64,000 bases of DNA. Origin: Brevibacillus laterosporus LMG 15441 (GTDB lineage: Bacteria; Bacillota; Bacilli; Brevibacillales; Brevibacillaceae). The notes below the pieces were generated by a model. That model was not told the origin of the DNA. It searched no databases and was given only the letters and a program-made list of their open reading frames with translations. Position 1 is the stretch's first letter. Each line of letters starts with the position of its first letter. Shown in pieces: positions 9,532-49,103 of the stretch. Location: positions 4,650,501-4,714,500 of the forward strand of contig NZ_CP007806.1 of the NCBI RefSeq assembly GCF_000219535.2, written 5' to 3'. The position numbers and the translations under genes were made by a program.

Positions 9532-9989
9532 TAGTCATCCCTCCTTCTAGATCGTAACAAATGATATTCTTCTATTTATCTACCATTCGTTATAGGTTTG
9601 TTTCCTCCTAGTACCCATCTTCACTCTTCTTACATACTTTCAATTTTCAGATTTTTACTCTAAAATGAACCTCCTATTTAACTTTTCCACATTCAGCTTG
9701 TCTTATAGTAGACTTTGATAGGAGGATGTTTTTTACAATTAATCCTAATTTATTCCTGCTTCATTTGCTTCGCTCTCCTCCTCCACATAACAAATGTGCT
9801 GTTTTTTTTCAAAACTACCTGTTACCATGGCCTTCATTTTCTATCATTTTGATCCAGCTTCATCCCTTTAGCCGCTTGATCTCTTCCTTATTCCTCCTTT
9901 TCTCATCAAATTTTAATAGGAATTTTTATCTACTTTTACCAGTTATCTACCGCTTTTTCCGTGCTTGCAACTTTGTTATTCTGAGTTTG
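9532..9989. other. Intergenic region without a convincing gene
   Basis: Pyrimidine-rich on the plus strand, between the divergent activator and riboswitch-controlled genes. It must hold both promoters. A TGTTATTCT extended -10-like element near 9974-9982 could start the riboswitch transcript. The only long frame, from 9726, has its ATG directly against the AGGAGG and a low-complexity Leu/Phe/Pro composition, and I do not accept it. Confidence 0.5.
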
Positions 9990-10128
9990 CCGAAACTTCC
10001 CAAGTCATGAGAAGTGCGGGGGATGACCGATGGTGTAAGGCTTATGCTAGCCACCTGGGGTGAATCACACATAAATGCTGCGTAGGGTTGTATCCTCAAT
10101 CCGAACCCGACAACTAACCTCGTAGGTA
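9990..10128 (+). ncRNA. ydaO/yuaA-type c-di-AMP riboswitch
   Basis: The leader of the CAP-domain gene carries the conserved blocks of this class in order: GTGCGGGGGAT (10014-10024), GGGGTGAATC (10059-10068), CGTAGGGTT (10081-10089), and the diagnostic 3' block CCGAACCCGACAACTAACCT followed by CGTAGG (10101-10126). The 5' limit is approximate. In this class c-di-AMP binding lowers expression of the downstream gene, commonly wall-remodelling enzymes or potassium and osmolyte transport genes. The gene start is only about 20 bases after the element, so control may act on translation or on a short expression platform. Confidence 0.92.
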
Positions 10129-10148
10129 AAAAAAAGGAGCGATGAATA

Positions 10149-46058: not shown

Positions 46059-46709
46059 TTAGCCTATTACATCCTCAATAAACCTCTCTAAGGCAGTAAC
46101 ATCCGTAATCCTGCTGTTACACTCATGACTATTAATACATATATACTGACCAACCGCTTTGTAATAATCAGAGGATACATGAGCAGCTCTTGATTTCGAG
46201 ATCGCTGAAAATAAAGCAACATCCGTATATCCATGGCATAATGCACATATGTTTTTCTTGTGTACAAGAGAATATCTCCCTTCGATCCCAACGGCTTTCC
46301 CTTTAAAATGATAAACAATGAATAGTTTATTGCTAGAAATGTTAATCCAGCCAAGATAGGTTACCTTGAGGAAGTCAATCGTTACTAAATCAGGAACCTT
46401 AAGCTTTTTATTTTTGGGGAATAGCTTCCTGATCTGTTTTTCAGTCACCTGTGGAAATTCAAGTAAGTAGGGTGTTAATGAACGGAGATAATCCTGAAAC
46501 TCTTCCGCTTTTATGGAAGAGATTCTCCCCAACAATTGTTTTTGAATATCCGTAACGGTGGGAAACACGTCTATTACTTTTACTTCTGCTCCATACCTCA
46601 CCGCTTCCATTACTTTAGGATCAGCAACAGTTAAGGTAGCGTTTCGCAGAATATCTATTTGCTTCTTAATAAAGTTATATTGATGATTTTGAATAAATGG
46701 CTCCACCAT
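46059..46709 (-). CDS. FusB/FusC-type elongation factor G-binding protein
   Basis: 216 residues. An N-terminal helical domain (PFIQNHQYNFIKKQIDILRN) precedes a C-terminal FBP_C-type domain with a four-Cys zinc finger: NICALCHGYTDVALFS holds two Cys, and CINSHECNSRIT the others. Proteins of this family bind EF-G and help release it from ribosomes stalled by fusidic acid. Length matches FusB (about 213). GGAGGG precedes the ATG. In spore formers such genes are often intrinsic. Whether it gives resistance here is inference. Confidence 0.85.
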   Translation of the reverse strand: MVEPFIQNHQYNFIKKQIDILRNATLTVADPKVMEAVRYGAEVKVIDVFPTVTDIQKQLLGRISSIKAEEFQDYLRSLTPYLLEFPQVTEKQIRKLFPKNKKLKVPDLVTIDFLKVTYLGWINISSNKLFIVYHFKGKAVGIEGRYSLVHKKNICALCHGYTDVALFSAISKSRAAHVSSDYYKAVGQYICINSHECNSRITDVTALERFIEDVIG

Positions 46710-46843
46710 ATCGTTCCCTCCAAATCCATAAACCTAGTCTTTTCAAAAGGCTCAAGCTTTCTTCCCTTCTTCACTCTTTCACTATAAAAAATTGGCTTGT
46801 GCTTTGATATGCAGTCTTTGATTCAGAAATGAACTCGACATAC

Positions 46844-46881
46844 AAAAAGCACTTATAATCTTGGGAATAGATTATAAGTGC
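46844..46881 (-). terminator. Terminator of the CD3324-like gene
   Basis: On the minus strand GCACTTATAATC, nine-base loop, GATTATAAGTGC, then five T. The stem is a perfect 12 bp. Confidence 0.93.
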
Positions 46882-46889
46882 AGCAATCT

Positions 46890-47162
46890 TCACGCCTGTT
46901 TACTGGAATATACAATTTTTTTAATCGTCTCTATCGAAAGAAAATGGTCATCAGCTAATTGATGAATCGTTTTTCCATTTTTGAATGCATGCCTAATGGC
47001 AGTATTTCTATCATCAATGAGCTTTCTTCCGCCAGAACGCGAGCCCCATTTTTGGTGCGTCGTTTTTGGTTTGGGAATATATATGGTTTCACCTTGAATA
47101 TATTTTTGAATTTCAACAAGCAGCTTTTCGGGTAAAATAGCTGTTGCACTCACATATTTCAT
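46890..47162 (-). CDS. CD3324-family small HTH protein
   Basis: 90 residues: MKYVSATAILPEKLLVEIQK, YIQGETIYIPKP, WGSRSGGRKLIDDRNTAIRH, then HQLADDHFLSIETIKKIVYS, a helix-turn-helix like that of Mor/CD3324-type proteins. The family is widespread in Clostridia and Bacilli and its role is not known; DNA binding is inferred. ATG at 47162 has AGGGGG upstream; an earlier in-frame start at 47213 lacks one. A 30-codon ORF with a strong ribosome site lies 88 bases upstream in the same direction. Confidence 0.8.
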   Translation of the reverse strand: MKYVSATAILPEKLLVEIQKYIQGETIYIPKPKTTHQKWGSRSGGRKLIDDRNTAIRHAFKNGKTIHQLADDHFLSIETIKKIVYSSKQA

Positions 47163-47249
47163 TTCTGACTGCCCCCTATTCATTAAATCAATGAAAATAA
47201 GGTGCAAAGCCAAAAATTAGAAATGATCTATGCTAACTTGGGCGATTTT

Positions 47250-47342
47250 CTATTGAATATCCACCCCATGCAAAGTATCGCCTCCAATACTTGGCTTTGC
47301 ATGAGATGCTGCGGTCTCTGACAAACTACGCTTTATTGCCAT
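47250..47342 (-). CDS. Short ORF, 30 residues, with near-perfect ribosome site
   Basis: ATG at 47342 is preceded by AGGAGGTGATAAGCA, a nine-base match to the 16S tail at ideal distance. The peptide starts MAIKRSLSETAASHAKPSIG and ends GDTLHGVDIQ. It has no hydrophobic segment and no Cys, but contains Ser/Thr (5). A 9-bp inverted repeat CATGCAAAG/CTTTGCATG (47267-47303) lies inside the coding part. I know no family. It may be a signalling or precursor peptide, or a translated leader of the downstream small HTH gene. Confidence 0.5.
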   Translation of the reverse strand: MAIKRSLSETAASHAKPSIGGDTLHGVDIQ

Positions 47343-47467
47343 TGCTTATCACCTCCTGGGATTTTCATTAGTCATTTTTCATTTTTTGTATAATTTCAAT
47401 CATATATGATGTGGTTTGTCAGGGGAAGTGAGTTATGGTTGATTGGTACTGATTTCGGATACCCAAT

Positions 47468-48511
47468 CTAACCAAAATCTTCGCTTAGGAATACATTATA
47501 ATGATTATATCGAGTTTCTAACGTATACCTATCATTCATGTTGTTCTGTAATTTGGCAATATGCTCATACAGCCAATCTTCATGTACATCCCTATTTTTG
47601 TATTCCTTTATACTTGTCTCATTAAAAATTTTATCTTTTTCATTGCTGCTCGCCTTGTATTTTATCAAGCATTGTACATCATTTGGAATGTCACCTAATA
47701 AATAGCTTATGCCTTCTGCTGTTATATCCATTTCACTCAAAGTCTGATTGTAATTAACCTGCTCAATTAATTTTCCATTTAGCGTTCTCTGATTGGCTTT
47801 TACCTGTTTAATAAAATCTTTCGTGTTAAAAATCATGATGGTTTCCAAATGGTCATAGTAAGGATCACTTGCTTTTGTCTCTCTCCACATGCTTTGTTTT
47901 TCATACGCATAAATTCTACCTGTCTTCATATAGAAGTAGTAATGCTGATCGGCATAGAAAGCTTGTAGGCTATCAAGTCGAAGCAAACTATCATTATGAC
48001 CTATATCTGAAGTTATTTTATAAACAGATGGTTCAATCGAATCAATTAAGAAAATATCACTATAGTAAGGTTTCCCATACTCTACCCCTGAACTTGAGAT
48101 GAAAAAAAGGGCGTACTGATCGTCTAGGGCATATATTTCAGATAAATGAGCCTCAACGTCATTCAAGCTATTGGTTTCCATCCATTTATTGCGATATTCG
48201 TCAGCTTGTATCACTGTAATTTTATTTGTACGTTTTTCATTGGTCTCTATCCGATAAAATGCGATTACATTTTTGTTATCTTGCTGATCAAGCTCAGCTC
48301 CGTATATTACCTTGCCTGTAGGTGAGATTGAGATTTTGGCTATTTGTTGAGGGATGGGATATAGGGTTTCCTTTTTTCCTTTTTCGAGATTAATGTTACA
48401 GATTGCTAGTTTTCCTTTTTCACAGGAATGACTGCAAGCTATGAATGATGGATTTACGATAGGCTTAAGTGGGATTAGTAGAGGTATTTCGCCCCATTTT
48501 TCTTTTTGCAT
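47468..48511 (-). CDS. Uncharacterised protein, likely beta-rich
   Basis: About 347 residues, no family recognised. Repeated beta-strand-like stretches (KISISPTGKVIYGAELDQQD, YYFYMKTGRIYAYEKQSMWR, SEIYALDDQYALFFISSSGV) suggest a propeller-like fold of the WD40/TolB sort. No signal peptide. I prefer ATG 48511 (MQKEKWGEIPLL), with GGAGG ten bases upstream; the frame is open to an ATG at 48589 that lacks a site. More AT-rich than neighbours, between the small HTH gene and ssrA. Confidence 0.6.
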   Translation of the reverse strand: MQKEKWGEIPLLIPLKPIVNPSFIACSHSCEKGKLAICNINLEKGKKETLYPIPQQIAKISISPTGKVIYGAELDQQDNKNVIAFYRIETNEKRTNKITVIQADEYRNKWMETNSLNDVEAHLSEIYALDDQYALFFISSSGVEYGKPYYSDIFLIDSIEPSVYKITSDIGHNDSLLRLDSLQAFYADQHYYFYMKTGRIYAYEKQSMWRETKASDPYYDHLETIMIFNTKDFIKQVKANQRTLNGKLIEQVNYNQTLSEMDITAEGISYLLGDIPNDVQCLIKYKASSNEKDKIFNETSIKEYKNRDVHEDWLYEHIAKLQNNMNDRYTLETRYNHYNVFLSEDFG

Positions 48512-48697
48512 TATATATTTGCCTCCAATATATAAATACGGGTATGGTTTCATCGATGATAATAACATGATTTCATAATTTTCGATCATTTCACACGAAA
48601 GATTGACACTAATTTTTCAATACGATTTCTTTTCCTTGTCCTAGCAAAAAAAAGTGTGTTTCCATCTATTTTCTAAATCATTCTTCATAAAAATGAA

Positions 48698-48751: not shown

Positions 48752-49103
48752 TGGAGGCGGGGGGATTCGAACCCCCGTCCGAAAACAGCGATACATGAGC
48801 ATCTCCGAGCGCAGTCACTCATTTATGTTTCGGTAGTGGATTCGCGGAGTGACGCGCTGACCCGCTACCTAGTCTGATTGATCTTCTTCCATCGGCTCCA
48901 GACGGAAGCCTCAGGCGTATCCCACTAAGAGTGAGTGCTAGTCACGCCACATGGGCGATGGAGTGGTAGCACCTAGCTGAGATTAGGCAGCTAGAGAAAG
49001 TTGTTTGTTGCCAGTTAATGGCTTTCCGCGTTGTTGACGAGGTCCGCAGCCCCCCGGCTCGCTTCTCATGCTCTACCATCCCCGTCGAATCCAAAACGCC
49101 CCC
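48752..49103 (-). ncRNA. ssrA: tmRNA
   Basis: 352 nt on the minus strand. The 5' end GGGGGCGTTTTGGATTCGAC and 3' end GGGGGTTCGAATCCCCC-CGCCTCC-A form the tRNA-like domain: 7-bp acceptor with one G-U, T-arm with TTCGAAT loop; CCA is not encoded. The internal ORF reads GGC AAC AAA CAA CTT TCT CTA GCT GCC TAA, giving the tag (A)GNKQLSLAA. It rescues stalled ribosomes with SmpB, whose gene is 190 bases upstream. Resume codon placement is by analogy. Confidence 0.97.

Follow-up and report, generated by a model that had tools for sequence, protein, structure and literature searches.

What is an unannotated frame of 30 codons, preceded by a near-perfect ribosome-binding site, doing in the genome of Brevibacillus laterosporus LMG 15441? 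The frame (MAIKRSLSETAASHAKPSIGGDTLHGVDIQ, 47250..47342) lies in a stretch of 64,000 nucleotides (contig NZ_CP007806.1, positions 4,650,501 to 4,714,500), referred to below as the window; positions count from its first letter and features are on the minus strand unless marked (+). Read from 47342 to 47250, the frame opens with the context AGGAGGTGA-TAAGCA-ATG, its Shine-Dalgarno sequence (SD1) being read as AGGAGGTG at 47350..47357, and its stop codon is followed after 87 nt by the start codon (47162) of a gene for a CD3324-family protein. The original prediction had held that the site and frame were real and unlikely to arise by chance, and both points stand: the window has a single occurrence of AGGAGGTGA followed at 2-8 nt by an ATG that opens a frame of 20 or more codons, whereas 100 dinucleotide shuffles gave 0.02 on average. 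Of the roles then proposed, that of a leader peptide held up, while those of a signalling peptide, an antitoxin and a modified-peptide precursor did not, given that the peptide is not conserved in its second half and the frame differs between loci. The 30-codon frame is probably the leader ORF through which a ribosome-mediated attenuator controls the translation of CD3324, a putative Mor/C-like activator of the promoter of a neighboring FusB-type gene.

Of 99 related genomes, 13 gave a match at E<=1 in a tblastn search with the peptide, the conservation check that had been suggested, and 11 of these matches were judged real on reading the DNA, the window's own genome being included in both counts. 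In these 11 relatives it is the nucleotides that are kept, whereas the peptide diverges in its second half. Because of a 2-nt indel, some loci read ..GGDTLHGVD.. there and others ..GKAILCMGRTF..; an in-frame TAG is found in three of the 11, and the frame ends early in some Brevibacillus. The check thus succeeded for the locus, as DNA and RNA fold, and failed for the whole peptide.

Searching with the CD3324 protein returned 281 relatives in named genomes, the best 80 of which were kept (the closest named locus among them is 98% identical); with the window these provide the 81 leaders referred to throughout. The leader ORF is predicted in 81 of the 81, a script located an SD-like site 5' of its start in 79 of the 80 best loci, and C[CT]CATGCAAAGCC was found 5' of CD3324 in 80 of these 80. 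From the leader start to the His codon of a His-Ala-Lys-Pro stretch there are 13 codons in 73 of the 81 leaders, 12 in seven and 11 in one, which means that the leader changes its length by whole codons. The first 13 codons before His-Ala-Lys-Pro hence keep length and frame, and the peptide of the last half is not conserved. A motif LP-x-[ST]-A-A-[ST]-HAKP is partly conserved among the leaders, and counts of synonymous changes did not distinguish the leader frame from the other frames.

The conserved object is a structured mRNA leader of about 145 nt overlapping the short ORF, not the peptide, and this RNA structure, like the FusB-type neighbor, had been overlooked in the original prediction. 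The whole structured leader (47160..47305) matches the covariance model R1 with 136.7 bits, the window being among the 61 leaders from which the model was built. Briefly, strand A (CTCATGCAAAGCC, 47293..47305) can pair either with A' (CTTTGCATGGG, 47265..47275), closing an 11-bp hairpin, or with the alternative partner A'' (GGCTTTGCA, 47203..47211), while strand B (GGCGAT, 47277..47282) pairs with B' (ATCGCC, 47241..47246), as seen in the covariation analysis. Further downstream, folding and covariation define a C hairpin between the anti-SD arm C (GCACCTTATT, 47196..47205), which overlaps A'', and arm C' (GAATAGGGGGC, 47171..47181), which holds the Shine-Dalgarno sequence of CD3324 (SD2). The two basal pairs of the C hairpin share nucleotides with A''. 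The leader therefore has two mutually exclusive structures, A:A' and A:A'', and SD2 is sequestered in the C hairpin, with a mean unpaired probability of 0.16 over the 81 leaders and of 0.43 in the window. The leader ORF enters or crosses strand A in every one of the 81 leaders. Its stop is mostly late, but it falls before B in B. reuszeri and directly after A in Paenibacillus-type leaders of FusB-type genes. In B. reuszeri-type leaders (L038, L048, L007-L009) a TAG between A and B closes the ORF, which indicates that the late part of the leader frame is dispensable.

An R1-guided alignment of 74 leaders (73 distinct), taken from CD3324 loci and from loci of FusB-type genes, was used to examine covariation. 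Over the 73 distinct leaders, standard pairs fill 98.7% of the cells of three helices taken together: A:A' with 11 bp, B:B' with 6 bp, and hairpin C including its base. Changes on both sides were found in 12 pairs of A:A', B:B' and C, against a shuffled mean of 4.1, and in 53 cells, against a shuffled mean of 5.8 and 3-12 in slid controls. Five of the six B:B' pairs have changed on both sides, as have four of the 11 pairs of A:A', in which 99.6% of cells are paired and in which, for example, C-G has become U-A at two positions. B:B' and C belonged to the R1 model and A:A' did not, so the covariation of A:A' is no product of fitting. For A:A'', 97.7% of cells are paired and the pairs are mostly invariant, one showing a double change; its support is consequently conservation more than covariation. 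No family of Rfam release 15 matches the leader, the two matches returned being chance ones (E 3-4). In a second CD3324 copy of P. megaterium (L040), most of strand B is lost and A:A' is kept, an alpha/beta hydrolase gene adjoining.

The genes behind the leader belong mostly to two unrelated families, CD3324 and the FusB-type EF-G-binding proteins (FBP). Among 250 Bacilli genomes, R1 gave 88 matches in 61 genomes and CD3324 was detected in 58; 46 of the 88 matches abut CD3324, and 40 of 85 CD3324 matches in the same genomes have no R1 match. Of the 42 matches elsewhere, 27 were fetched (the other 15 include four at 45-52 bits), and 21 of these 27 directly precede an FBP-type gene, eight of the 21 having been checked with Pfam and all eight lying over the cut-off. 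Of the remaining fetched matches, one precedes a truncated CD3324-like frame, one precedes nothing recognizable, and four precede a CAT_RBD/PRD antiterminator gene (L200-L203; 31-40 bits, one checked); the last four were discarded, a terminator-like hairpin having been matched by chance. Intact leaders also stand before truncated or frameshifted CD3324 genes at L182 and L207, and a P. megaterium plasmid (L209) carries a row of macrolide glycosyltransferase, FBP and alpha/beta hydrolase genes without an R1 leader.

Some of the CD3324 genes that lack an R1 match are preceded by leaders that have diverged but are recognizably related (L112, L113, L115, L121). In a phylum-wide sample of 27 CD3324 loci, two of them near the model (L102, L105) and with the contig-end loci L104 and L117 left out, a short ORF with a good SD lies upstream in 19, compared with 8.3 expected on shuffles of all 29 loci, and the folding z-score is below -2 in 20. 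Several distant Bacillota leaders of CD3324 (L110, L114, L116, L123, L124) show, by eye, GC-rich hairpins followed by T runs, which suggests a transcription-attenuation version of the same control.

The gene behind the leader (46890..47162) encodes a helix-turn-helix protein of 90 residues, assigned to the Mor-like CD3324 family by NCBIfam NF040785 (108 bits, cut-off 65). Its Pfam Mor match falls just under the cut-off (24.4 versus 24.9 bits), and a PDB fold search with its structure model (pLDDT 80) placed Mu C first and Mor seventh, both at non-significant E values (0.15 and 0.5). CD3324 is proposed to be a Mor/C-like transcription activator that would bind DNA. Nothing relevant on CD3324 by name was retrieved from the open-licence literature searched. 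The gene is followed by a predicted intrinsic terminator (46849..46881), and a script found a terminator-like element between CD3324 and FBP in 53 of 70 loci drawn from the best 80 of 281.

The FBP gene itself (46059..46709) encodes 216 residues, and both of its domains exceed their Pfam cut-offs (PF07299, 68.2 bits; PF16571, 36.8 bits); the far higher NCBIfam exception cut-offs of fusB, fusC, fusD and fusF (375-450 bits) were not reached, the scores being 86-97 bits. In 70 of the best 80 of 281 loci, as in the window, tblastn located FBP downstream of CD3324 on the same strand. FBP appears to have its own promoter, with a -10 hexamer TATAGT (46781..46786) lying 22 nt after a conserved 34-bp block (46809..46842) that was identified by a block score and is the putative activator site. 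The best block score exceeds 20 of 34 in 78 of the 81 loci (shuffled maximum 20), a comparison that is partly circular because the consensus was drawn from the same loci. The spacing is not circular in this way: a TA...T hexamer stands exactly 22 nt past the block in 75 of the 81 loci, compared with at most 12 at any other offset. The block would span about -68 to -35 of the FBP promoter, the region where an activator acts. No second copy was detected in the window's genome at up to 3 mismatches over the first 23 bases, so that control by this single putative site looks local rather than regulon-wide.

The block also precedes effectors other than FBP, namely a hydrolase (L037, L060, L062), an esterase (L042) and GNAT proteins (L051, L072), the alpha/beta hydrolase arrangement being that of B. 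spizizenii and its relatives. Among the genes that come next at more distant CD3324 loci are those for an ABC-F protein (NF000355, 273 bits against a cut-off of 380; the sequence ends at the locus edge), a Vat-like acetyltransferase (235 bits, cut-off 300) and a SpoU-type rRNA methyltransferase. Less telling neighbors are YebC, RarA (by eye), a nucleotidyltransferase-domain protein and a generic methyltransferase.

Several further features surround the leader. A 373-residue ORF (47468-48589) with no Pfam or NCBIfam match lies between it and a tmRNA gene (48752-49103) just upstream of the leader region. In staphylococci, fusB islands are described as inserting downstream of smpB (PMC12561750), a resemblance that is perhaps coincidence. 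A c-di-AMP riboswitch (73.8 bits) is present elsewhere in the window (9978-10143, +). In many loci, the leader's own promoter carries ATGCAA (often AACAAGATGCAA) at its -35 or close to it (L022, L037, L043, L049, L055, L057-L059, L061, L063, L065, L066, L075, L076, L079, L083), possibly reflecting autoregulation or another activator.

The leader ORF, the RNA structure, the link to CD3324 and FBP, the conserved block and the promoter spacing were computed, and from them the following mechanism is proposed. During normal translation, the ribosome would pass over strand A and make it unavailable to A'', and the C hairpin would hold the SD of CD3324 closed. When elongation is blocked, a ribosome would stall early, around leader codons 9-10, and, by covering the 5' part of A, keep A:A' from forming. 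The remainder of A could then pair with A'', loosening the base of the C hairpin and allowing CD3324 to be translated. CD3324 would in turn bind the 34-bp block past its own terminator and switch on the FBP promoter, and FBP would free EF-G from stalled ribosomes. That the leader senses blocked elongation, and would thus be induced by translation inhibitors, is proposed by analogy with the induction of plasmid-borne fusB; the direction of the switch, from A:A'' to an open SD2, is likewise inferred.

Folding with a parked ribosome (assumed footprint 31 nt) was carried out on every second of the 81 leaders, 41 in all, with energies that leave out the pseudoknot of A:A' and B:B'. With the P site at codons -5 and -4 relative to His, the probability of A:A' was 0.02 and 0.00 and that of A:A'' 0.98 and 0.71, and the energy for opening SD2 was lowest (7.6-7.7 kcal/mol), compared with 9.6-11.1 kcal/mol when the ribosome sat on A. 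Over all 81 leaders, SD2 opening cost 10.8 kcal/mol when A:A' was forced and 8.2 kcal/mol when A:A'' was forced. Both sets of opening costs fit A:A'' as the more open state. Yet A:A'' is already favored in ribosome-free RNA (0.83), SD2 is mostly paired in every modelled state and never opens fully, and in the window's own leader an early stall brought no gain over free RNA (9.8 kcal/mol at P-6 and 7.9 at P-4, against 7.7 when free), so that the folding model contains no full switch. The parked ribosome produced small mean changes in unpaired probability at SD2 and modest changes in energy; a simple thermodynamic opening of SD2 by the parked ribosome was rejected because these changes are too modest. 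The variable position of the leader stop, the missing R1 match at 40 of 85 CD3324 genes and at the S. aureus fusB leader, and synonymous-change counts that favor no frame also weigh against the attenuator. The assignment of the leader to the attenuator class is well supported, and the stall position within it is a prediction of the model.

Other readings of the same conserved strands have to be weighed against this one. The TGCAAAG/CTTTGCA repeats could be DNA operators through which CD3324 regulates itself, rather than RNA structure, as the cores of A, A' and A'' are almost frozen in sequence and ATGCAA/TTGCAT words are enriched 5' of the leader (32, against 11.4 expected from shuffles), many of them at the -35. 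DNA operators would not explain why pairing in B:B', in C and in the outer part of A:A' survives changes on both sides, why the leader precedes FBP at loci without an adjacent CD3324, or why SD2 sits inside the C hairpin, which makes this explanation very unlikely. A ligand-binding riboswitch controlling CD3324, with the short ORF incidental or a mere coupling device, would account for conserved single strands such as CATTTCTAATATT before A'' and for the possible pseudoknot of B:B' with A:A'. It is nonetheless unlikely, since a leader ORF preceded by a good SD keeps its distance of 13 codons (seven times 12, once 11) to A in each of the 81 leaders, and since the downstream genes are of ribosome-rescue or resistance types rather than of one metabolic pathway.

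The same frozen strand A bears on the proposal that the peptide acts in trans, as a signal, an antitoxin or the precursor of a modified peptide. The near-perfect SD and the partly conserved motif would suit such a product, but the HAKP codons coincide with strand A, and many FBP-preceding leaders use a different frame (ending ..SCKA or ..YAKPE before the stop codon). Together with frame shifts and early stops this speaks against the peptide being secreted as a signal or serving as an antitoxin or RiPP precursor, and the proposal is barely plausible. A secreted or modified peptide was rejected in that no peptide conservation extends beyond the overlap with strand A and the codons preceding it; a RiPP precursor lacks both a conserved core peptide and a maturation enzyme, none having been found by Pfam and NCBIfam among the scanned neighbors, as the original prediction had also noted. 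An origin of the peptide from mobile elements was discarded as well: plasmids gave no match, and phages a single one attributed to chance (E 9). Finally, the leader might work without a stalled ribosome, for example by trapping free 30S subunits or through mRNA processing at A:A'. The merely modest shift of SD2 opening in the folding model speaks for this, whereas the control that FusB-type genes have in common with other resistance genes suggests that translation is sensed, and a leader of this kind has a slim chance of being correct. The stall-responsive attenuator is accordingly preferred.

Beyond this locus, the balance tips slightly towards a two-step resistance module distributed across Bacillota. 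A stall-sensing leader would control CD3324, which would act on one type of promoter (34-bp block, 22 nt, -10) placed before interchangeable ribosome-protection genes, mostly FusB-type but also ABC-F, Vat-like acetyltransferase, 23S rRNA methyltransferase, esterase and GNAT genes; the same leader would also drive FusB-type genes directly, and the whole would be a WhiB7 counterpart built from unrelated parts. No description of the leader or of its control of CD3324 was found in the open-licence literature searched, and a 2025 review states that the regulation of FusB homologs is unknown. The proposal offers a testable answer for chromosomal FusB homologs in Bacillales and a job for the CD3324 family, and the combination of leader, CD3324 and block promoter provides a signature for finding uncharacterized genes against translation inhibitors. 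If true, it would mean that ribosome-stalling leaders of Bacillota can act through a dedicated activator and not directly on the resistance gene.

Leader ORFs with mutually exclusive structures before a gene for resistance to translation-targeting drugs are familiar from erm and cat. The same arrangement is described for ABC-F genes such as vmlR, msrD and others (PMC12421871). In contrast to all of these, the leader here would control a transcription activator, and its fold, absent from Rfam, is another one. The closest functional precedent is plasmid fusB, reported to be induced by translational attenuation in which fusidic-acid-stalled ribosomes on the leader alter mRNA structure (PMC3352095, PMC12493156, PMC12008383). 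As in pUB101 fusB, a leader stands before a FusB-family gene, but in the present system CD3324 usually comes first, and FBP apparently has its own promoter; the S. aureus pUB101 leader (L208) gave no R1 match at E<=10, and homology between the two was dismissed, none having been found with R1. The published uORFC-6-1 motif upstream of hflX in Bacillales (PMC8632094) is likewise a structured uORF leader before a ribosome-rescue gene, although the gene is another one and its conserved Arg-Leu-Arg peptide motif is missing from the CD3324 leader. A weak Pfam Mor match, the rank of Mu C and Mor in the fold search and an activator-type promoter layout recall Mor/C of phage Mu; the Pfam score is below the cut-off, the fold E values are non-significant and the context is cellular rather than phage. 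For the two-step logic, the nearest parallel is WhiB7/WblC of Actinobacteria, a transcription regulator described as being governed by ribosome-mediated attenuation and as activating resistance (PMC12421871). The CD3324 proposal likewise places a regulator under ribosome-mediated attenuation. The two families are presumably unrelated, and with its single putative site in the window's genome CD3324, unlike WhiB7, appears to exert its control locally.
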